The translations under genes and the position numbers were made by a program. This document shows, piece by piece, positions 16,277 to 30,522 of a DNA stretch of 34,319 nt; positions within the stretch are counted from its first letter, which is position 1, and every line of letters begins with the position of its first letter. The DNA comes from Eubacterium sp. (GTDB taxonomy: Bacteria > Bacillota > Clostridia > Lachnospirales > Lachnospiraceae), in NCBI GenBank assembly GCA_017541035.1, contig JAFXZW010000074.1, forward strand, positions 1 through 34,319, read 5' to 3'. The notes beneath the pieces were generated by a model. It did not search any database and was not told where the DNA came from. It saw only the letters and a list, made by a program, of their open reading frames with translations.

Positions 16277-18220
16277 ATGGGAGAACACAGAAAGCTTGTC
16301 GCGCTCTGTACATCACGCGTCTATGACACCCAGATTCACGGCTTTATCGAGACATTAAACGAGAAGCTTCGTACAGAATCTGCATCTCTTTTAGTGTTCA
16401 CGATGAATTCCGATATCTACTGGGATGAGACTCTGGTTCCTGCCGAAACGTATGTTTATGATATCATCCCCTACGAAGACCTGGACTGCCTCATTTTGAT
16501 GGATGAAAAGATCAAGAGCCATTCCATCGCACAGCGCATTCTGTCACGATCAAAAGAGAATCATGTTCCGGTGATCGTGATTGACGGTTCCTATGAAGAT
16601 ACCATTCACGTTCGTTTTGATTATGCAAAGGGCTTTGAACAGATCGCGCGTCATATCATCGAGTATCATCATGCCCGGCTTCCGCATATGATGGCCGGCA
16701 TCCCCGGTGATGTCTTTTCCGAGGAACGGATAGATATTTTTAAGAAGATTCTTGCAGAAAATGGTATTCCCTTTGATGACAGCATGGTCAGTTACGGCGA
16801 TTTCTGGGCGGATCCCACCCGTGAAGCAACGCTCCTTCTCCTGAAGAGAGAAACTCTTCCGGACGCAGTGATCTGCGCCAATGATATTATGACCATCAAC
16901 GTAAGCGCCGTCCTTGAGGAAAATGGTATCCGTGTTCCCGAGGATGTGCTTGTGTCCGGTTTTGACGGATTTGAACAGATCTTCTTCTCGACTCCGAAGA
17001 TCTCCAGTGCCAGCTGTGACAGTGTCCTGCTTGCGGAAGCTGCCGGAGATACCGCTGTCCGTCTGATCCGGGGAGAGACCTGTACTCACCGCCTGATCCC
17101 ACCGAAGCTGATTCCTAATGAATCCTGCGGCTGTCCTTCCATGATGTGGCATGCCCACGCCATACTGTCCAGCTTCAACAACAGCTTCTACCGGCATCAG
17201 GATGATGTGCGAATCCTCTATGACATTTCTACCGCCATGGAGACCAGTCTGACGCCCTATGAAATGGCTTCCCGTATCCATCAGCATAAAACCAAGCATC
17301 ATCTTACTGTTGTGGACCGCCACCTCTTCGATACGGATCAGAACTATTTTCTGATACCCAAGGAGAACATGCAGACCCGGAATCTCCATATGATCAATGA
17401 TGCAGACTATGCCGAGGAGCATCGTTTCGTTCACATTCCCGTTCCGGATGAGGTATGGAATGACCAAACCGTAAATGAAAAGGAGTCCGTTCTCTCCGGT
17501 GGATACCGAAACCGGATCCTGGAGCTGACTGAGTCCGGTTATCCGCTGATCTTCAACGCCCTTGATTATCTGAACCGGCCCTTTGGCTTTGCCTGCTATT
17601 ATTTCCAGGACTATGCCATTACCGACTACTCCCGTTCCGCCACCATTACCAATGCGCTGAATATGGGTATCGGTGGTTATGTAAACCTGCAGCATCAGCG
17701 TATCCTTCTTGAGAAGATGGACGCCATGTATAAGCACGATGCGCTGACCGGCCTCTATAACCGTCTGGGATTCCATAATGCTTACGAGAAGGTATTTGCG
17801 GCGGAGGCTGATAAGGGCACTCCTGTCACCCTCATCATGTCCGATCTGGATGGATTGAAATATATCAATGATCATTATGGCCACGCTGACGGTGACCGGG
17901 CCATCGCAGCCGTAGCATCCGCTATGCTGAAGGCCTGCCCCGACGATGCTCTGTCCGCCCGCTTCGGCGGAGACGAGCTGTTCTCCGTTATCATCGGGGA
18001 GTGCGATCCGGAGAAGATCATTTCCGACATCGACCGTTATCTGGAAGAGTTCAATGCCTCCATCGACCTTCCCTATGTGATCGCAACCAGCAGCGGTTCC
18101 TTCACCACCACCCTGACCAAAGGCTATGACATCCTGAAGTCACTGAAGGTAGCAGACGATAAAATGTACGCAGTAAAGAATGCAAAACGTGATGCGGGAA
18201 ATTACATCACATCAAGGTAA
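16277..18220 (+). CDS. LacI-type receptor domain fused to GGDEF domain
   Basis: A 647-residue cytoplasmic protein with no signal peptide or membrane segment. Residues 5-285 form a LacI/GalR-like periplasmic-binding fold without a DNA-binding domain (AVICANDIMTINVSAVLEEN, VPEDVLVSGFDGF, ending NESCGC). Residues 295-475 form a linker that may be GAF-like. Residues 485-640 form a GGDEF domain (HDALTGLYNRLGF, SDLDGLKYINDHYGHADGD), with the signature as GGDEL at 564-568. It probably makes c-di-GMP in response to a sugar or nucleoside-like ligand (inference). The E-to-F core differs only in the last position, so activity is plausible but not assured. It is followed 2 nt later by acylphosphatase. 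Confidence 0.9.
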   Translation: MGEHRKLVALCTSRVYDTQIHGFIETLNEKLRTESASLLVFTMNSDIYWDETLVPAETYVYDIIPYEDLDCLILMDEKIKSHSIAQRILSRSKENHVPVIVIDGSYEDTIHVRFDYAKGFEQIARHIIEYHHARLPHMMAGIPGDVFSEERIDIFKKILAENGIPFDDSMVSYGDFWADPTREATLLLLKRETLPDAVICANDIMTINVSAVLEENGIRVPEDVLVSGFDGFEQIFFSTPKISSASCDSVLLAEAAGDTAVRLIRGETCTHRLIPPKLIPNESCGCPSMMWHAHAILSSFNNSFYRHQDDVRILYDISTAMETSLTPYEMASRIHQHKTKHHLTVVDRHLFDTDQNYFLIPKENMQTRNLHMINDADYAEEHRFVHIPVPDEVWNDQTVNEKESVLSGGYRNRILELTESGYPLIFNALDYLNRPFGFACYYFQDYAITDYSRSATITNALNMGIGGYVNLQHQRILLEKMDAMYKHDALTGLYNRLGFHNAYEKVFAAEADKGTPVTLIMSDLDGLKYINDHYGHADGDRAIAAVASAMLKACPDDALSARFGGDELFSVIIGECDPEKIISDIDRYLEEFNASIDLPYVIATSSGSFTTTLTKGYDILKSLKVADDKMYAVKNAKRDAGNYITSR

Positions 18221-18222
18221 TT

Positions 18223-18504
18223 ATGCGAGAGATCATCAGAAAAAGAATAAAGTTTACCGGTCTGGTACAGGGTGTCGGCTTCCGCTGGCGGGCAAAGAAT
18301 TCAGCAGCAGCCCTTGGGCTCACCGGCTGGGTCAGAAATGAATATGACGGCTCCGTCACCATGGAAGTCCAGGGTGTGGAAGCCGCCATCGACCGTATGT
18401 TGGCTGAGATCAGCGCCGGTCGCTATATCGATATCGATCAAATGGAGGCCCGTAGGATCTCCATTGATGAAAATGAGCGAAGCTTCAAGGTGCGGGGATA
18501 CTGA
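18223..18504 (+). CDS. acyP: acylphosphatase
   Basis: A 93-residue cytoplasmic enzyme hydrolysing carboxyl-phosphate bonds such as acetyl phosphate or carbamoyl phosphate. GLVQGVGFR (13-21) supplies the catalytic R21, and GWVRNEYDGSV supplies N39. Both match the family exactly and the length is standard. The ATG lies 2 nt after the stop of the GGDEF gene with AAGG at a usable distance, so translational coupling is likely. Confidence 0.95.
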   Translation: MREIIRKRIKFTGLVQGVGFRWRAKNSAAALGLTGWVRNEYDGSVTMEVQGVEAAIDRMLAEISAGRYIDIDQMEARRISIDENERSFKVRGY

Positions 18505-18553
18505 TCACCCGCACCTTTTAAGCCTCTGTTTCAATCCGGAAGGAGAAAACAAA

Positions 18554-19030
18554 ATGAATCCATATATGAAAATGGCAAATGATCTTGCGGAGGAGAACCT
18601 GACCACAAATGCAGGAGGCCCCTTTGGTGCAGTGATCGTAAAGGACAATGAAGTGATCGGCCAGGGTTCAAATCATGTTCTTGCCTGGCACGATCCCACC
18701 GCTCACGCAGAGGTAACCGCCATCCGGGACGCCTGCAGAAAGCTTGGTACCCATGACCTTTCCGGATGTACCCTCTATACCTCCTGCTATCCCTGTCCCA
18801 TGTGTCTTTCCGCCATCATCTGGGCCAACATCCGTACCGTGTATTACGGCAACACAAAGGAAGACGCGGCGGATATCGGATTCCGGGACGACTTCATCTA
18901 CGGCTATATTGATTCCCTGAAGGAAGGCGCCGGTGACAGTACCACTTTGGAGCTGAATGCCATGGACCGGGAAGAGACCATCGAAGCCTTCCGGAAGTTC
19001 GCGACAAAAGACGACAAAACCATGTATTAA
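18554..19030 (+). CDS. guaD: guanine deaminase (CDA-fold)
   Basis: A 158-residue zinc deaminase of the cytidine deaminase fold, converting guanine to xanthine. GGPFGAVIVKD, the zinc and proton-shuttle motif PTAHAEVTAI, PCPMCLSAIIWA, and the tail with FRDDFIYGYID are very similar to B. subtilis GuaD (156 residues), which has DPTAHAEVTAIRKAC and FIYKEID. The start ATG has AAGGAG about 10 nt upstream; the frame extends further, but into the acylphosphatase gene. It is the last gene of the GGDEF-acyP operon. A tRNA adenosine deaminase role is less likely given the GuaD-like tail. Confidence 0.9.
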   Translation: MNPYMKMANDLAEENLTTNAGGPFGAVIVKDNEVIGQGSNHVLAWHDPTAHAEVTAIRDACRKLGTHDLSGCTLYTSCYPCPMCLSAIIWANIRTVYYGNTKEDAADIGFRDDFIYGYIDSLKEGAGDSTTLELNAMDREETIEAFRKFATKDDKTMY

Positions 19031-21950: not shown

Positions 21951-24900
21951 ATGATCGACCATTACAATGCCTTTATCTCTTATCGCCATTCGGAGCGTGA
22001 TATCCGGGTGGCCCACACCATCCAGTCAGATCTGGAGCATTTTCATATTCCCGCGAAGATCCGAAGGAGTACCGGGAAAAAGAAGATCGACCGAATCTTC
22101 CTGGACAAGGATGAACTTGGTGCGGCCAGCAACCTGTCCGCCGATATTTCCGCAGCTCTGGAGCAGGCGGAACACCTGATCGTAATCTGCTCCAATGCCA
22201 CAAAGGAGTCTCAGTGGGTACCGCGGGAGATAGCGTATTTCCTCCGTAATCACACACGTCGTCAGATTACCACGGTTCTTGTGGACGGTGAGCCGGAGGA
22301 AGTGATTCCCGAAATCCTGAAGTACGAGGACAGGGTATACCGGAATCCCGACGGCAGTGAATATACCGTTCGCGTCCCCCTGGAGCCCCTCTCCTGTGAC
22401 TATCGTCTTCCCCGCAGAAAGGCAAAAAAAGAGGAGCTTCCAAGACTTGCCTCCAAGCTGCTGGGATGTTCTTACGATGAGCTGATGAACCGTAGGCGTA
22501 CCTACATGATCCGCCGGCTGTCGATCATTTTTTCTCTCTTTCTTGCTGCAGCCATAGGCTTTGGGGCATACCTCATGTACAGTCGTACGCAGATTCGGGA
22601 TAACTACCGGAACTCTCTTCGGAATCAGTCTGTTTATCTTGCAAATGAATCCCTGTACTCCCTGCAGCAGGAGCAACGGATCCTGGCACTTCAGCTGGCT
22701 CTGGAATCCATGCCAAAGGATGAAGATGACATGCGTCCCGTCACGCCGCAGGCTATCCGTGCCCTGACGGACTCAACGCTCTCGTATACAACCAGAGACG
22801 GTCTTGGCATCGAAGATATCTGGAGCTACCGCATGCCGGATTATATCAAGAAAAATGACTGGGAGCTTTCTTCCTCGGGAAAAGCTCTTCTTGCCGCAGA
22901 CAAAGCCGGCAATGTCCGGGTGTGGGATACCTCAACCCACGCCATTCTTTTCGATCAGGCCGTCGGAAAACGTCTGAAGAAAGCAACCCTTCTTCCGGAT
23001 GATAAATTACTGGTGGTTACAACCGGTGAGATTACCCTTTACCGGTTAGGTGACGGAGCTGTTTTTTGGAAGGAAGAGAGTAAAAGCCCCTTCTGCGAAG
23101 CAAAACCGTCTGTCCTTTCCGATGATACAATCCTCATTGCCACCTCCGATCTGAAGCTGCATCGTCTTTCTCTTACAGATGGATCCGAGCTGGCTGTCTA
23201 TGAGCTTCCTGCGGAGGTTGACGGGTTTGCCATGTCTGTTTCCGAGATCAGGATTTCTCCTGACGAGAAAAAGATTGCCGTGAAATCCGTGTATGATTTT
23301 ACCTCCCAGCTGATGGTGATCTACGATATTCCCTCCGGAAAGGCCGTTTCACGCAGTTCCACCGAGTACACTTCCTCCTTCTTCTGGGGGGACGATACTC
23401 ATTTGCTTATCGCATCTATAGAAAAGTTATTGGATTCCAGTTATTCCATCGGCTATGTGCCCAACGTCAAGACAGACCGCGTTGATCTGCGCTGTTATGA
23501 CCCGTCCAGCTTCACTGAGATCTGGAACTATGATTTTACCAGTACAAATGTGGCGGTACAAAGCGGTTTTTATCCCCTTCCGAAGAACGGTGCCATTGCC
23601 TATTTTCATGCGAATAAGGCAGACATCCTTCAGCTCACAGACGGTGCGCAGATAGCGAGCCACAACACGAACGACCCCATCATTCTGATACAGGATCCGG
23701 ACGGTGATGGTTGGCCCTTCTACGTTACGGAGAAAGGCATTCTGGCCTTTCCGTCAACAACGGACAGCGTATCCCTGTACCCGTACTTCACATCCAACCT
23801 GCAGGACGCTTTCTACCGCAGCGATATTGGTTTCTTTGTACACTCTTCAAATGATTATGAGATCCTGCATTATGGACTTTATGTCAGTGATACCAGTTTT
23901 ACCCCGCTTCAACCGGAAAAGGAACTATCCCGGTTTGAAAAATCCTGGCTGGATGACAAGGTACTGGCCCTCATTACATCTGAACCCGCTGATCTTTTTC
24001 CGGGAACCGCTCCGGAGGGCGAAACAACAGTTCCTGTTCTGTCCATAGCCAACCCTTCCACAGGAGAACAGCTGCATCAGATCCCCCTTACGGATGAAAA
24101 ACCGATTCATTCCTTCCGCATCCAGTTTATCGGTACGGAGGGGACTCATTTCTACCTGGGCTACCCACGTTCCGGCAACGGATACCGGGTCCTGGAGGTA
24201 GATCTTGACTCCGGTGCGGTTTCAGAGATCGACCTTGCTGAAGGCGAAAATGTTTCTCAGGAATTCTGTACTCTGGATAAAGGAAAGCTTTACTATTGCT
24301 GCAAGGGCAATGCCGATCGCCTGCAGCTCTGCACCTATGATCTTCTGACGAAACAAATAACCACATATCCGGTCGGCGACGGGACCGATTACTTCAGTAT
24401 CCGGAGGGAACCTGTCATTCTTCCTGTCCTGCATGAGGTACTTCTGATCGGTTCGGAAAAGAGTATCCTGGTAAATACGGACAATGGGTCCTCCCGGTAT
24501 CTGACTCTTCCGGACAACTGGGACACAATGTGGACAGCTTATAATCCGGCTCAAAACAGCTTTGCATTTTCAGATGGAAATGATATCCGTCTGATCCGTC
24601 CGGACGGAGGAGACGATATTGTGATCAACTGTCCCGTGAAGCCCAGTGGTTTTTCCTTTTACTCCGACGGGAAGAAGGGAGATCCGACGTTGCTCCTGGT
24701 TGCCTATTCCAGCGGACATCTGTACCGCTACAACGCCGAAACCGGTGAACTTCTGGGACAAAGTGATCTTACCTGGTCCTCTTCCATAGAACCAAAGGCC
24801 GAATTCCTGAATGATCCGCAAAATGGACTCCTCTATCTTCAGCTGAGTGATACCCTTGACATTATCGAAACAGACACCTGGTATGAGGAAACCAGCATTA

Positions 24901-25100
24901 GCCGATGTCTGGGATATCATTCCCCCACCGATCGTTTCTATGTCTATTCGCATCCGAATGGCTCGACCTACACTGTCGGATATTTTAACCGGTATTCGGT
25001 AGATGAACTGGTACAGAAAGCGAAGGATATGCTTCATGATAACGAAATGCCGGACTCGGTGAAAACCGAGTACGGCATCGAAATTACGAAGGATGAATAG
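21951..25100 (+). CDS. TIR domain-transmembrane-beta-propeller protein
   Basis: A 1049-residue protein. Residues 1-135 are a TIR domain: box 1 FISYRHSERD, box 2 RIFLDKDEL and box 3 ESQWVPREIAYF. E93 aligns with the catalytic glutamate of NAD-cleaving TIR domains such as SARM1 (DWVHKEI). One membrane helix spans 189-210 and follows the positive RRRTYMIRR, so the TIR should be inside and the C-terminus outside. A helical linker (213-255, LANESLYSLQQEQRILALQL) resembles those placed before WD40 domains. Residues 290-1040 are beta-propeller-like, with GNVRVWDTSTHAILF as the clearest blade and DDTILIATSDLKLHRL, VIYDIPSG and GHLYRYNAETGELL as others. GGAGG (21936-21940) precedes the ATG. The architecture is receptor-like; function and ligand are unknown. 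Confidence 0.85.
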   Translation: MIDHYNAFISYRHSERDIRVAHTIQSDLEHFHIPAKIRRSTGKKKIDRIFLDKDELGAASNLSADISAALEQAEHLIVICSNATKESQWVPREIAYFLRNHTRRQITTVLVDGEPEEVIPEILKYEDRVYRNPDGSEYTVRVPLEPLSCDYRLPRRKAKKEELPRLASKLLGCSYDELMNRRRTYMIRRLSIIFSLFLAAAIGFGAYLMYSRTQIRDNYRNSLRNQSVYLANESLYSLQQEQRILALQLALESMPKDEDDMRPVTPQAIRALTDSTLSYTTRDGLGIEDIWSYRMPDYIKKNDWELSSSGKALLAADKAGNVRVWDTSTHAILFDQAVGKRLKKATLLPDDKLLVVTTGEITLYRLGDGAVFWKEESKSPFCEAKPSVLSDDTILIATSDLKLHRLSLTDGSELAVYELPAEVDGFAMSVSEIRISPDEKKIAVKSVYDFTSQLMVIYDIPSGKAVSRSSTEYTSSFFWGDDTHLLIASIEKLLDSSYSIGYVPNVKTDRVDLRCYDPSSFTEIWNYDFTSTNVAVQSGFYPLPKNGAIAYFHANKADILQLTDGAQIASHNTNDPIILIQDPDGDGWPFYVTEKGILAFPSTTDSVSLYPYFTSNLQDAFYRSDIGFFVHSSNDYEILHYGLYVSDTSFTPLQPEKELSRFEKSWLDDKVLALITSEPADLFPGTAPEGETTVPVLSIANPSTGEQLHQIPLTDEKPIHSFRIQFIGTEGTHFYLGYPRSGNGYRVLEVDLDSGAVSEIDLAEGENVSQEFCTLDKGKLYYCCKGNADRLQLCTYDLLTKQITTYPVGDGTDYFSIRREPVILPVLHEVLLIGSEKSILVNTDNGSSRYLTLPDNWDTMWTAYNPAQNSFAFSDGNDIRLIRPDGGDDIVINCPVKPSGFSFYSDGKKGDPTLLLVAYSSGHLYRYNAETGELLGQSDLTWSSSIEPKAEFLNDPQNGLLYLQLSDTLDIIETDTWYEETSISRCLGYHSPTDRFYVYSHPNGSTYTVGYFNRYSVDELVQKAKDMLHDNEMPDSVKTEYGIEITKDE

Positions 25101-25192: not shown

Positions 25193-25239
25193 AAAGCCTG
25201 CCACAGCAATCTTATGATTCACTGTGACAGGCTTTTTTT
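25193..25239 (+). terminator. terminator of the TIR gene
   Basis: AAAGCCTG (25193-25200) plus CACAG pair with CTGTG plus CAGGCTTT (to 25235), with one mismatch and a 15-nt loop. Seven T follow (25233-25239). In the opposite direction the hairpin is followed only by TTTG, so it serves the convergent DHH gene poorly. Confidence 0.88.
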
Positions 25240-26752
25240 AATCTTCCACTTTCCGGTATAATTTGTCGAAAAGCCGTCTCCGTATAATGTAAATGTCATG
25301 CGGATCATCTTCCCGACAGGCGATATAGTCACCGGGGTTGCCGGAATAATACTTTTCTTCATCCCAGGCCGTAAAAAGCTTGACATAATGATCCAGCGGT
25401 TTAGCCAGGATTCTCGCTCCGCCTGAACTGATCACGCCCATGGCATGCTCCATTACGGTCTTTCGTTCGTGGGTTACCAGATCCGTAATGCTCGGATCGT
25501 AGTCAAAAACCCGACTATAGGGCTTTCCGGTCCTGGTATAGCTTGTCTGAAGCTTTGCCTCACGGATCGGATATACCTCCCCTTCAATTCCGATCATCAG
25601 GTAAAGATCAGCTTCCACTGTCACATCCACATCTCCCTCCAGAGTACGGATCTCCACCTTCGTCCCCTCCGGGAAGAGTACATTCAGCTTCACACAGCCA
25701 ACCTCCTGCGGAAGCTTCTCATAGAGAACAAGTCCTTTCGGATCAAGAGTCGTCTCTTTCGCATAAAGCACGTCATACAGCGAGAAGTAGGACTCCAGCC
25801 GTTCTTCCAGGATTCTGTCCGTCACAGTAACGATGTCCTCTCCCGGCAAAGCATACTGATCCAATCTGTCAGGACGGATGGTCCCTCCGGCCTTCAGAAT
25901 ATGTCCGCCGCCTCCACCGACTCCATCCGTCAGATAAGCAGCCAGTTCATCCGCATGAACCTCCTTTACGCAGCTCCGCACGGACAGCTTGATCTCATAG
26001 GGACTGACATAGTAAGCGAGACTTGCATCGATTCCTTCCGTCTCCATGACAAAATCACTGATCACGCCCAGAATGTTTGGATCGCAGGGCTCGGTCCGGA
26101 GGATCACATAACGGTATTTTTTATGATATTCGTATCCCGTGATGGCATGACCGGTTATGGTCAGTTCATCAAGAGATATGTTTGAATTGCTCATTTCCGT
26201 GATCACGCTGCGATTCACCGTAAGACTGTCCCGCATGTCTCGGTCCAGAGGATGAGACACCTCAGACAGACGATTGGTATCGGAGAAAAGTCCGTAATAC
26301 AGCGCCGTGGAAAGCTTCCTGTCATCATCCACAGACAGTCCCTCTGCCCGGATCATGTCCCATAGTATGGTGGCACAGCTTCCCTGCCCGACTCTCACTT
26401 CAGACAGCTCCGGCAGTTCATCGATCACCTGGTGATGATCGATCACCGCTACATTTTCCGCTTTGGTCCGTGTTACATTTTTCTGTCCGTACTGACAGTC
26501 TACCGTAACCAGCAGCTCCGGAACGGAAGACCAGTCCGGTTCATAGGAAACCGGGATATCCAGACGGTCGATCATGATCCTCAGGTTGCTTTTCTGTATC
26601 CGGTTCCTTCCGCGATAGATAAAAAGAGCATCCTTTCCCATCTTTTGGAAGTACCACCAGAGTGCATACCCGGATGCCAGCGCATCCGCATCCGGATTGT
26701 CGTGGCACTGGACCACAATATCACTATATTTCAGAAGTTCATTCAGTCTCAT
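25238..26752 (-). CDS. DHH/DHHA1 phosphoesterase with extra C-terminal domain
   Basis: A 504-residue protein. The N-terminal DHH domain has metal motifs CHDNPDADA (16-24), TVDC (D85), IDHHQ (105-107) and GLFSDTN (D158). The DHHA1 substrate domain has GGGGGH (279-284). These are the motifs of NrnA and PDE2-type enzymes, which cut nanoRNA, pApA or pGpG to mononucleotides. Residues about 340-504 form an additional region ending with NPGDYIACREDDPHDIYII, which is not in NrnA (about 320 residues) and which I do not recognise. GAGAGG lies about 8 nt before the ATG. It follows the EAL gene by 79 nt on the same strand, suggesting a role in clearing pGpG (inference). Confidence 0.88.
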   Translation of the reverse strand: MRLNELLKYSDIVVQCHDNPDADALASGYALWWYFQKMGKDALFIYRGRNRIQKSNLRIMIDRLDIPVSYEPDWSSVPELLVTVDCQYGQKNVTRTKAENVAVIDHHQVIDELPELSEVRVGQGSCATILWDMIRAEGLSVDDDRKLSTALYYGLFSDTNRLSEVSHPLDRDMRDSLTVNRSVITEMSNSNISLDELTITGHAITGYEYHKKYRYVILRTEPCDPNILGVISDFVMETEGIDASLAYYVSPYEIKLSVRSCVKEVHADELAAYLTDGVGGGGGHILKAGGTIRPDRLDQYALPGEDIVTVTDRILEERLESYFSLYDVLYAKETTLDPKGLVLYEKLPQEVGCVKLNVLFPEGTKVEIRTLEGDVDVTVEADLYLMIGIEGEVYPIREAKLQTSYTRTGKPYSRVFDYDPSITDLVTHERKTVMEHAMGVISSGGARILAKPLDHYVKLFTAWDEEKYYSGNPGDYIACREDDPHDIYIIRRRLFDKLYRKVED

Positions 26753-26831: not shown

Positions 26832-28763
26832 TCATTTTCTGACAAAAGCATCCTTCTGTGTGATATGTTCCAAAAATGCATTCTTTGGGATTGGCCTCGA
26901 GAAATAGAAGCCCTGAAGATAATCTACCTTCAGCTTTTCCAGCAGCCGGATCTGCTCTTCCGTCTCCACGCCTTCCACCAGGATCTTCTTATCCATCTGC
27001 CGGATCATACGGATGGTATTCTCCAGGATCACCATACCCAGCTTGCTCTTCTCGGCACCCCACAGGAGGCTTTTATCGATCTTCACCACATCCAGATTCA
27101 GGGAGAAGACCGCACTGACATTGGAATAACCTGTCCCGTAATCATCCATGGAGAAGAGGAAGCCTTCCCTCTTCAGCTTCCTGATCACCTTGCTGAGGGT
27201 ATCATAATCATCTGCCGCGATAGATTCCGTGATCTCAAAATTGATCTGTCTCCGGTCAATGTTATAACGGCTGACGATCCCCTTGATGCTCTCCACAAAA
27301 CCGGGCCGCATACACTGAAGCACCGACAGATTGACATTGATATTATCAATTCCGTACTTCTGCGGAACGCCCGTGGCAAGAAGGCGGCATACCTCCTCCA
27401 GAACAAATTCGTCGATATCATCAACCAATCCGTTCTGCTCCGCGATGGGTATGAATTCATCCGGGAAAAGGTTTCCCAGCTTCTTGTCATGCATTCGGAT
27501 CAGCGCCTCAGCTCCGTGAAGCTTTCCGTTGATATGATAGGTTGGTTGATAATAAACCTCATAACTGTTCTCTGCAAAACCGCGTGATAAAGCATCCTCG
27601 ATGGACTGCCTCCGCATGATAAAGCTCAGATCATCACCCTTTAAGACAGTCTTCCCCTCATTCTCCGGTATCGGACTGTCGATCATATAGAAGAGCTCAG
27701 ATGTTTTTTTGATCTGACTGGGAATATCCGCCACAACCACGGTAGCGTTCAGCTGAATACTGTATTCCCCGTAATCCCAGAGTTCCTCAAATCGTCCCGC
27801 TATCTCATCCGCCAGTGCAAACACCTTTGCCTCAGGCTCATCATAGATGGTCAGGACAAAGGAATCCTTCTCCGGCACATAGATATAATAACGCTTCACA
27901 ATGGATGTCAGATAACCGGAAAGGACATCCGCAACGGCATTATTCTCTCCCGTTCCCACCAGTCTGTTCACCAGATCGTAATTATGAATCCGGATCAGAA
28001 TGATATGCAGCTTCCGATCATTCCACAGACAGCTCGTAAAATCCAGATTGAGGGCCGTCCTGTTATAAAAGCCCATCCCGATATCGATACGGTCATCCTC
28101 ATTCTCAACCGACATCATAACACCGGTAAAGCCGATCGCCTCAGCCAGAACTTCTATCTTGAGATCCTTATTCAGAAGCTGGATGATAACACCGATTGCC
28201 GTCATGATGAAGAAGAAAACCAGGGCTGTCCGCCTCTTCTTTGAGATCACCTTCCATGAACGCCCAAGGACAACAAAGGAAAGAACATAGTAGAAAAGAG
28301 CGGCAAGATAGATCAGAAACTCGCCCCATTCCCGATGAAACTCACGATTCTCATCAATCCGCCATACAAAGTTCGTCACAGGATTGGTAATGGCAAGAAG
28401 CTCTGTAAAGAAAAACGGCAGGGAAAGAAGAAACATCTTTCTGTTGGCCAGACGTGTTGACACGAAGCTGACATTGGATACATAGTAGAAAAAAAGAGGA
28501 CAAAGCGCCGTATGTGTAGCAAAGTAGATATACCTGCTGATCTGCACGAAAAAGAGAGAGTTCGTCGCAGAATGCAGGCCATCACTGAAAATAGATGAGA
28601 TTATGCTTGTCATGGAATTGATAAGCAAAATAAGAAGAATCGCAATAAAGAAACGGTTCTGGAGTTTGTCCGTCCGTTTCTGAATAAAGGTATAGATTAA
28701 ATTGGCTATACAAATGAGCAGTGATGAAACAGCCACGCCCAGAGAGAACGAAAAATTCAGCAT
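26832..28763 (-). CDS. membrane EAL-domain c-di-GMP phosphodiesterase
   Basis: A 643-residue protein. Seven or so membrane helices occupy residues 5-220. A degenerate GGDEF-like domain (about 225-370) has YVPEKDSFVL where the signature should be. The EAL domain (about 385-640) has the catalytic set intact: EALIRM, NVNLS, FEITES, MDDYGTGYSN, VKIDKSL, EGVETEEQ and LQGFYFSRP. It should linearise c-di-GMP to pGpG. ATG at 28763 is chosen because GAGGG lies 6 nt upstream; it touches the ATG two codons earlier. It starts 34 nt after the PAS-GGDEF gene and precedes the DHH gene, all on one strand. Confidence 0.92.
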   Translation of the reverse strand: MLNFSFSLGVAVSSLLICIANLIYTFIQKRTDKLQNRFFIAILLILLINSMTSIISSIFSDGLHSATNSLFFVQISRYIYFATHTALCPLFFYYVSNVSFVSTRLANRKMFLLSLPFFFTELLAITNPVTNFVWRIDENREFHREWGEFLIYLAALFYYVLSFVVLGRSWKVISKKRRTALVFFFIMTAIGVIIQLLNKDLKIEVLAEAIGFTGVMMSVENEDDRIDIGMGFYNRTALNLDFTSCLWNDRKLHIILIRIHNYDLVNRLVGTGENNAVADVLSGYLTSIVKRYYIYVPEKDSFVLTIYDEPEAKVFALADEIAGRFEELWDYGEYSIQLNATVVVADIPSQIKKTSELFYMIDSPIPENEGKTVLKGDDLSFIMRRQSIEDALSRGFAENSYEVYYQPTYHINGKLHGAEALIRMHDKKLGNLFPDEFIPIAEQNGLVDDIDEFVLEEVCRLLATGVPQKYGIDNINVNLSVLQCMRPGFVESIKGIVSRYNIDRRQINFEITESIAADDYDTLSKVIRKLKREGFLFSMDDYGTGYSNVSAVFSLNLDVVKIDKSLLWGAEKSKLGMVILENTIRMIRQMDKKILVEGVETEEQIRLLEKLKVDYLQGFYFSRPIPKNAFLEHITQKDAFVRK

Positions 28764-28797
28764 AGGCATCCCTCAATCTGGTAGATTTCTTCTGATA

Positions 28798-30522
28798 TCA
28801 GCCATGCTTACAGATTTCCTTATTCCTGTACATCAGGGCATCTGCGCGTTCAAACACATCCTGTACACGCAGATCCAGATCGGGGTTGAATTCAGACATT
28901 CCGATCGCCAGTAAAACCACTCCCTCATACAGGTTTTCTTTCAAGGCACTCTGAAAGCGTTCCAGGAGTTTATTGCGGTTTTCATAATCCTGACCGCGCA
29001 TGATGGCAACGAACTCGTCACCGCCAACCCGGAATACGGGACTATGTTTGAACACGTCACAGATGATCCCGCAGGCTTTGCGGATGAACTCATCGCCTTC
29101 GTTGTGTCCCTTCGTATCATTCACACGTTTCAGTCCGTTCACATCGCAAACCGCCACGGCAAACTCGGGCTGGACATTATGCGAGATCTGCTCATCCAGA
29201 TCCAACTCCGCCTGTACATAAGCTCTCTTGTTCTTCACACCGGTCAACGCATCTCTGTTTGCCATATCCACAGCGTTCTGATATGCGATCTCCATCCGCT
29301 TCGCGGCATCCACATTTGCTACCGCGATAATGATATGCTCCGAATCATCCTGAGGACGAACTGCGTAAAGAGAAACATACTGCGCCCGTCCGTCCAGCAT
29401 CAGACGATAATTCAGAAATGTCTTTCCGAAGGAATCCAGACTGTTCAGCAGGTTTTCTTTCTGCATGGAAACACTCATCATGGGCAGATCGTCCGGATAA
29501 ATGTCCTTCTTCATGTTGATCTGGGTTTCCGTAAAGAAATCCTTCCCTGTTGCTCCCACCTTCAGCTTCGCGTACTGATCACTGGCGTTATACTCAACAT
29601 ATTCATTTGTCACAATATTGACACGATATATTACCTCATAGCGACGAGCCAGAGCCATGGCCATATCTCCAAAGGTCCGGGACTCCGACTCAAGCTTTAT
29701 CTGCTCATCGACATTTCTGGCTGCAATGATCAGGTGTTCTCCGCTTTCCGCAGTGGATTTCTGTATAAAAGCCAGAATATTCATATAACTGACAACTCCG
29801 TCTACCAGCTGACGGAAAGTGAGGGATATGGATTTGAATCTGTGCAGTTTGTCCAGAAGCACTTCCCGACCCAGCTCGTGAAGGATACGATCACAATCAT
29901 CCGGGTGAAGGATGCGCTTCAGATCCTTTCTGGCGCTCTCAAAGAAGTCCTCATCCTGCCCAAGCTTCTGACGTGAAAATTTCGACCTTGCACTGTAAAC
30001 CGTATAATATCCGGTTTCAAGCTCTATGTGGTAGATAATTTCAAACATGCTGGCAAGAGAGCTCGCGATTTCGGAATAAGTGCGGCTCTCTTCTTCGGAT
30101 TTCAATTCTCTTTTTCTCTGCTCATCGATATCCCGTACACCGATGACGATACTGCGGTCCGTTGTACGAATCGCCTTCAGGAAGAAATAGCGCGGAGCTC
30201 CTTCTATCGTAAGGCGATAGTTCAACGTGAAGGCCTGACCGTTCTCCAGTGCATGAACGATGTTCTCCTTCCGAAAAGCTTCCAGGAAAGACTCCTGATC
30301 ATCCTTCCATACCTGCTCACGAGCATCCCTGGGAACATCCTCAAAGAAATTCTTTCCGCCGGAAACCGGAATCAGTTCCTTCTCTTCCCCGCTGGGAGAA
30401 TACTCCACATAGCTGTCATCTTCGGAATCGATCACGAAAAGTCTGCTGTAATCATTGGCCAGAGCCAATGCGAGATTAACAAAAGAAAGTGATGCTTGTG
30501 TATTGCCGTTTCCTTCCTGCAT
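28798..30522 (-). CDS. soluble diguanylate cyclase with three PAS-like repeats
   Basis: A 574-residue cytoplasmic protein with no membrane segment. Three homologous sensor repeats (about 12-140, 146-278 and 285-410) each contain a YVEYSP/YYTVYSA/YVEYNAS strand, a GKDFF-like turn, and end in VRDIDEQ, ARNVDEQ or VANVDAA. A GGDEF domain follows (420-574), with RDALTGVKNKRAY, CDVNGLKRVNDTKGHNEGD and an intact FRVGGDEF (500-504). It should synthesise c-di-GMP under control of the sensor array. AAGGAG lies about 8 nt before the ATG. It is the first gene of the GGDEF-EAL-DHH operon. Confidence 0.93.
   Translation of the reverse strand: MQEGNGNTQASLSFVNLALALANDYSRLFVIDSEDDSYVEYSPSGEEKELIPVSGGKNFFEDVPRDAREQVWKDDQESFLEAFRKENIVHALENGQAFTLNYRLTIEGAPRYFFLKAIRTTDRSIVIGVRDIDEQRKRELKSEEESRTYSEIASSLASMFEIIYHIELETGYYTVYSARSKFSRQKLGQDEDFFESARKDLKRILHPDDCDRILHELGREVLLDKLHRFKSISLTFRQLVDGVVSYMNILAFIQKSTAESGEHLIIAARNVDEQIKLESESRTFGDMAMALARRYEVIYRVNIVTNEYVEYNASDQYAKLKVGATGKDFFTETQINMKKDIYPDDLPMMSVSMQKENLLNSLDSFGKTFLNYRLMLDGRAQYVSLYAVRPQDDSEHIIIAVANVDAAKRMEIAYQNAVDMANRDALTGVKNKRAYVQAELDLDEQISHNVQPEFAVAVCDVNGLKRVNDTKGHNEGDEFIRKACGIICDVFKHSPVFRVGGDEFVAIMRGQDYENRNKLLERFQSALKENLYEGVVLLAIGMSEFNPDLDLRVQDVFERADALMYRNKEICKHG

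Follow-up and report, generated by a model that had tools for sequence, protein, structure and literature searches.

Animal Toll-like receptors combine a single membrane helix, a TIR domain inside the cell and a large repeat sensor. The TIR proteins ThsB (of the Thoeris system), AbTIR and TcpB are soluble and, to our knowledge, the bacterial TIR proteins described so far are mostly soluble, internal alarm enzymes. Here, we analyzed a stretch of 34,319 nucleotides (the window) from a gut/rumen-type bacterium, Eubacterium sp. (Lachnospiraceae; assembly GCA_017541035.1, contig JAFXZW010000074.1), in which a gene at 21951..25100 (+ strand) encodes a 1049-amino-acid (aa) protein with the order TIR, transmembrane segment, helical linker and predicted beta-propeller. 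Beside it lies a conserved partner gene (25238..26752, - strand) for a 504-aa DHH/DHHA1 phosphoesterase that carries an additional C-terminal region. In our judgment the evidence is about evenly balanced as to whether the first protein is a single-pass TIR-class membrane receptor working together with the neighboring phosphoesterase, a view in which the topology and the activities are predicted. The sequence-only reading that preceded this analysis had proposed an external sensor coupled to a TIR domain; what it observed holds, its interpretation does so only in part, and the DHH partner had gone unnoticed there.

The likeness to animal Toll-like receptors is one of convergent layout, with kinship shown for the TIR domain only. 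In the bacterial protein the TIR domain is N-terminal, reversing the order, a catalytic-type glutamate is kept, and the sensor, probably outside the cell, is a propeller: the leucine-rich repeat ectodomain that defines the Toll-like receptor family was not found in it, and propeller models match instead. With ThsB (PF08937), AbTIR and TcpB it has in common the TIR fold family and the conserved glutamate and tryptophan, but a membrane segment and a propeller follow its TIR domain and its partner is a DHH enzyme. ThsA is not next to the window TIR gene, whose neighbors are TrkH and the DHH phosphoesterase. NrnA, GdpP and TM1595 share the DHH and DHHA1 domains and intact metal motifs with the partner, which differs from them in its extra C-terminal region of ~200 aa and in its linkage to the TIR gene. 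PMC9153377 notes that some TIR-only proteins have transmembrane regions and that TIRs also occur joined to nucleotide-binding domains (NBD) and WD40; as presented there, the bacterial TIR-NBD-WD40 proteins also have an N-terminal TIR and C-terminal WD40-type repeats, whereas Pfam finds no NTPase domain in our protein and a membrane segment stands in its place. Among the literature matches listed, in a search covering few subscription journals and no bioRxiv preprints, there was neither a TIR-transmembrane-propeller receptor nor a TIR-DHH pair.

Results

The TIR domain occupies residues 1 to ~150 (21951..22400). Membership of the TIR family follows from two curated Pfam models, TIR_2 on residues 8-126 (36.6 bits, cut-off 28) and ThsB_TIR on residues 8-111 (34.2 bits, cut-off 21.2), and a profile of the family matched TIR structures in the PDB, among them those of TcpB, TLR2, Cat1 and AbTIR (E 8e-5 to 0.004). 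On the window protein the older model PF01582 (TIR) reached 14.2 bits, under its cut-off of 21.3, and a phmmer search of the PDB with the first 200 residues as a single sequence gave no match under E 0.19. Residue E93 belongs to a W89-x3-E93 motif (22215..22229), which in AbTIR marks the position of the catalytic glutamate. Among 109 open reading frames (ORFs) of the family, some species being included twice as named and unnamed copies, the glutamate column is kept in 108 and the tryptophan column in 107; the sole ORF without the glutamate is a short TIR-transmembrane ORF of locus L121. The protein therefore has the residue that characterizes TIR NADases, as the sequence-only reading had supposed for E93, with cleavage of nicotinamide adenine dinucleotide (NAD) itself being predicted.

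A single membrane segment, with an arginine-rich flank on its N-terminal side, is predicted at residues 190-209 (22518..22577). The most hydrophobic 19-residue stretch of the protein starts at 190 (190-208; mean Kyte-Doolittle 2.14), and the next separate one, near residue 822, has a mean of 1.44. At the corresponding place the mean is at least 1.6 in 102 of 108 family ORFs, where it reaches 3.1, and 1.36-1.53 in the remaining six, so that both the single helix and the Toll-receptor-like layout claimed for this protein recur across the family. Judged by hydrophobicity, one predicted span joins the TIR domain to the sensor. For the flanks we used a 35-row alignment, made of the window protein and 34 of the 40 family proteins over 900 aa (L037, L060, L062, L067 and L071, as near-duplicates, and L042, which runs off its contig, were left out by hand): lysines and arginines are more numerous in the 15-residue flank on the N-terminal side of the segment than in the flank of equal length on its C-terminal side in 32 of the 35 proteins, and equally numerous in two. 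By this lysine and arginine count the propeller is probably outside the cell, a predicted topology.

The segment is followed by a conserved helical linker (residues 210-290, 22578..22820), in which R243, P255 and A271 are invariant, and Q226, S227, Y229, L230, E233, S234 and A246 nearly so, in the same 35 rows. Residues 291-1040 (22821..25070) consist of propeller-type repeats of the WD40/PQQ type, in agreement with the ~750 residues estimated earlier. Pfam PQQ_2 matched residues 301-489 (47.8 bits, cut-off 27.6), the remaining propeller models listed by the Pfam scan of this protein being under their cut-offs; in the PDB, the family profile matched WD40 proteins over positions ~290-520, and the C-terminal half (560-1049) matched WD-40, TolB (E 1e-4) and an S-layer propeller (E 0.003). 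Comparison of residues 285-1049 with themselves gave an off-diagonal match at 98.7% probability, with shifts from 43 to 558 residues, several of which, the shorter ones among them, are weak; from the shifts we estimate a blade unit of ~46 residues and perhaps 14 to 16 blades. In ten divergent relatives TIR_2 was above its cut-off in all ten, while a propeller model matched six (three above a cut-off) and none matched the other four. The TIR domain is the better kept part: over this domain 34 full-length homologs are 55-80% identical to the window protein and five more distant rows 37-48%, against 17-49% for the C-terminal half, as would be expected if the output stays constant while the sensor changes. 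In the 42 loci from named records, conservation of the very first residues partly reflects how these loci were found, through exact peptides that include MIDHYNAF.

In the partner protein, the DHH domain (residues 12-154, 26291..26719, - strand) carries D21xD23, D85 and D105-H106-H107, with D158 just beyond it, and the DHHA1 domain (residues 215-299, 25856..26110, - strand) carries GGGH at 281-284; all these residues are invariant in the 27 aligned DHH proteins (the window's and 26 of the 52 collected). Both domains score above their Pfam cut-offs (49.8 and 27.2 bits) and, together with the metal motifs, place the protein among the DHH/DHHA1 phosphoesterases; from the intact motifs it looks like an active enzyme. 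The C-terminal region of ~200 aa (25241..25855, - strand) has no Pfam family: in the 27 members no family besides DHH and DHHA1 occurs in more than one, and none is shared over the last 200 residues. The best relative in the PDB is a putative exopolyphosphatase-related protein, others being TmPDE/TM1595, NrnA and manganese pyrophosphatases. Because the genome also encodes three other DHH proteins, of the GdpP type (with GGDEF), RecJ (above the curated cut-off) and NrnA-like (below its cut-off), the partner is an extra member of this class. It had no PADLOC match at E 0.001.

The TIR and DHH genes of the window lie tail to tail, 137 bp apart. Over 43 neighborhood sources (42 loci from named records plus the window) the DHH cluster occurs in 32 and any other neighbor cluster in at most eight; TrkH was considered as a partner and dropped, its cluster having at most two members over the same sources. 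By profile search, DHH is within 500 bp in 33 of the 42 named loci, and the pair was also found in other families of the order. The genus has 36 DHH genes in 35 of 37 genomes. Of these genes, 34 have a TIR gene no more than 400 bp away, in 26 convergent pairs and eight same-strand pairs with DHH upstream. Wherever DHH is the upstream gene on a shared strand, the distance counted from the first potential start codon runs from -55 to +94, which leaves the two genes touching or nearly touching. The two genomes of the genus without DHH (G018 and G031) are the same two without the TIR gene, both incomplete drafts (86 and 91% completeness, 5 and 7% contamination), and in G004 both genes are partial and on separate contigs. 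A quick tree was built from 79 DHH proteins (identical rows and those under 430 aa left out). On this tree, which has 22 open forks and on which gains are indistinguishable from losses, the arrangement of adjacent pairs changes seven times and the state paired or alone ten times, seven of these being forced by starred branches.

The two families also co-occur. Both were present in 25 of 295 genomes, TIR only in 19, DHH only in 22 and neither in 229 (p 3e-12); in 130 genera the corresponding numbers are 13, 10, 6 and 101 (p 7e-8), kinship being ignored in both p values. Of the 55 genomes positive for A1 (the TIR protein profile), the count excludes from TIR 11 in which the match lacks the TIR part, and of the 67 positive for A2 (the DHH profile) it excludes from DHH 20 in which the match lacks the C-terminal region. 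G152, with a match ending at 338, is included, although by the same rule it was due for exclusion.

The TIR family itself is matched in 35 of the 37 genomes of the genus, including that of the window, which has a single TIR_2 match; some have up to four matches, and in G004 the match is to just the end of the protein. Two of 24 genomes drawn alongside from other genera of the order also match. In the order-level sample the full-length profile is matched at E 1e-10 in 55 of 295 genomes (in 11 only behind the TIR domain), and in a phylum sample the TIR profile is matched at E 1e-12 in six of 398, again with that of the window included, four of the six in its own family. The 42 named loci, nearly all from metagenome-assembled genomes, belong to Lachnospiraceae, Eubacterium sp., other Clostridia, Solobacterium and one Erysipelotrichaceae record. 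Distant relatives are found in seven records of a plasmid collection, from Sinorhizobium (three), Rhizobium, Novosphingobium, Butyrivibrio and Fusobacterium, the product name in the Butyrivibrio and Sinorhizobium records being 'toll/interleukin-1 receptor domain-containing protein'. A tblastn search of phage records at E 1e-10 gave no family match, and neither did a scan of viral contigs for exact peptides, which reaches close relatives only. The TIR-transmembrane-propeller order is a conserved family and not a product of chance; the search for homologs with this order and for conserved neighbors, which the sequence-only reading had recommended, returned both the family and the DHH partner.

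One locus carries tandem receptors. In L124 (5974-12392), from the single-contig genus genome G002, two TIR proteins are identical over 150 residues whereas their propellers are 58% identical, synonymous identity is 85% in the TIR part and 66% in the propeller, and the propeller itself is a patchwork, which suggests gene conversion or propeller exchange. It is one clear repertoire-like case, and most paralogs are without such a pattern. Propeller exchange as a general rule was rejected, as a difference of at least 15 points was reached by three of 24 within-genome pairs (L124, 19; L080, 15; G098, 15) and six of 249 between-genome pairs, in a comparison controlled for amino acid conservation (250 between-genome pairs were drawn and one was filtered out).

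Discussion

Our proposal builds on what is established at these loci, namely the domain order, the conserved glutamate and membrane segment, the intact DHH metal motifs and the recurrent pairing in several arrangements. The propeller, outside the membrane, would bind, or be perturbed by, a component of the envelope or of the surroundings, and sensing would make the TIR domains cluster at the cytoplasmic side. There, as the conserved residue suggests, E93 would cleave NAD to give an ADP-ribose-type nucleotide signal, which the cytosolic phosphoesterase, to judge from its linkage and enzyme class, would destroy or convert, setting a threshold and ending the response. A DHH enzyme is said, in the title of one study (reference 164 of PMC7824862), to destroy a CRISPR signal nucleotide. 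According to PMC7824862, the cyclic linkages on which DHH phosphodiesterases act are diverse. More tentatively, and as a possibility that we would lean against in this complete form, the two genes may form a bacterial Toll-like receptor pathway, in which an outer tandem propeller gates a TIR domain making an NAD-derived messenger that is then cleared by a DHH/DHHA1 phosphoesterase dedicated to this task. Rearrangements of the locus would then tend not to separate the two genes, and tandem copies with a shared TIR domain and differing propellers would be a small receptor repertoire. If the receptor is real, its presence in nearly a whole genus would mean that bacterial TIR signaling is used for sensing the outside; if the DHH enzyme degrades a TIR product, its substrate would reveal the nature of the signal, and two genes would suffice to test how a TIR pathway is switched off.

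Several observations weigh against a membrane receptor paired with a phosphoesterase. A kept glutamate is no proof of NAD cleavage. The positive inner flank described by the sequence-only reading stands by lysine and arginine counts, but net charge favors a TIR domain inside in just 21 of the 35 aligned proteins; likewise, the external sensor remains likely by the same counts, although a composition-based export classifier, with a training set too thin to decide the matter (seven lipoprotein-like and 143 cytosol-like neighbors), scored the outer parts as mostly not exported. As for the partner, nine of the 42 named loci show no DHH gene (some are at contig ends), and one genome of the genus, G034, has the two genes on different contigs. 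Of the 25 order-level genomes with both genes, 15 hold them within 1 kb, three at ~1.4-3.0 kb and seven far apart, while the DHH family is missing from 19 of the 44 genomes with TIR, and TIR from 22 of the 47 with DHH. A TIR gene stands beside none of 30 further DHH loci, which were picked because no TIR was known there, several being cut by contig ends and three being on contigs under 4 kb. The pair is therefore not obligatory.

These points feed into alternative explanations. The hydrophobic stretch might be a buried helix, or the propeller might face the cytosol, making the protein an internal TIR-WD40 sensor; similar linkers precede WD40 repeats in STAND proteins, and the propeller composition falls between the cytosol-like and lipoprotein-like training sets. 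We doubt this reading, as the segment occurs at one place in nearly all family members, with the hydrophobicity given above, and its TIR side is arginine-rich. That the TIR domain would be only a scaffold, acting by assembly without NAD cleavage while the propeller reports envelope status to other signaling proteins, would agree with animal Toll-like receptors, whose TIRs act by assembly, and with TLR2 being among the PDB profile matches; it is distinctly improbable to us, since a pure scaffold would not need the nearly invariant E93 and W89. We find it equally improbable that the TIR and DHH genes are neighbors without joint function, through shared descent of one gene order. Each family does occur without the other, and DHH also stands alone elsewhere, but order or strand changed seven times on the quick tree while adjacency stayed, the pairs occur in several families, and no other neighbor cluster approaches the DHH gene in frequency.

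An anti-phage or abortive-infection pair, in which the propeller senses envelope damage caused by infection, the TIR domain drains NAD and the DHH enzyme is a safety valve, is favored by the resemblance of the TIR class to ThsB (Pfam ThsB_TIR is above its cut-off, with PADLOC ThsB models matching weakly, best E 0.00037), and the near-identical TIR domains with divergent propellers of L124 would fit it, as would a deaminase of the window that resembles PADLOC dCTPase over 49 residues. We nevertheless regard it as unlikely. A gene present almost throughout the genus is hard to square with mobile phage defense and, given the varied surroundings as well, speaks for a standing sensor instead; the DHH protein has no PADLOC counterpart at the threshold used, the searches of phage records and viral contigs were negative within their reach, and the named window neighbors are mostly housekeeping or cyclic di-GMP (c-di-GMP) genes. 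The defense role put forward by the sequence-only reading consequently finds no support, PADLOC having matched one of five other window genes.

Other genes at the loci

Short TIR-transmembrane ORFs without a propeller stand beside a longer receptor at L121:7621-8463 (280 aa) and L109:8933-9739 (268 aa), and may be adaptors or remnants. At L096:3042-5375 and L094:9215-11060 a second, different TIR-like protein is encoded between the TIR-transmembrane and DHH genes, that of L096 having 778 aa and matching PADLOC RT-Protease_XI models (E 4e-20, residues 388-575); between the same genes lies a 162-aa gene that, by eye, we presume to be LURP-one-like.

The window genes named by Pfam or NCBIfam include trkH/trkA, methylglyoxal synthase, GGDEF/EAL and glutamine synthetase. 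The deaminase (18272-19030, + strand, 252 aa), the only one of the five genes to match PADLOC, did so with dCTPase (anti-phage dCTP deaminase) at E 3e-10 over ~49 residues, and its best NCBIfam match is TadA, below the cut-off. Upstream of it, at 16277-18220 (+ strand), a 647-aa protein fuses a LacI-type periplasmic-binding domain to GGDEF, an unusual layout of sugar sensor and diguanylate cyclase, and at 26832-30522 (- strand) EAL and GGDEF proteins are encoded in a row adjoining the DHH gene.

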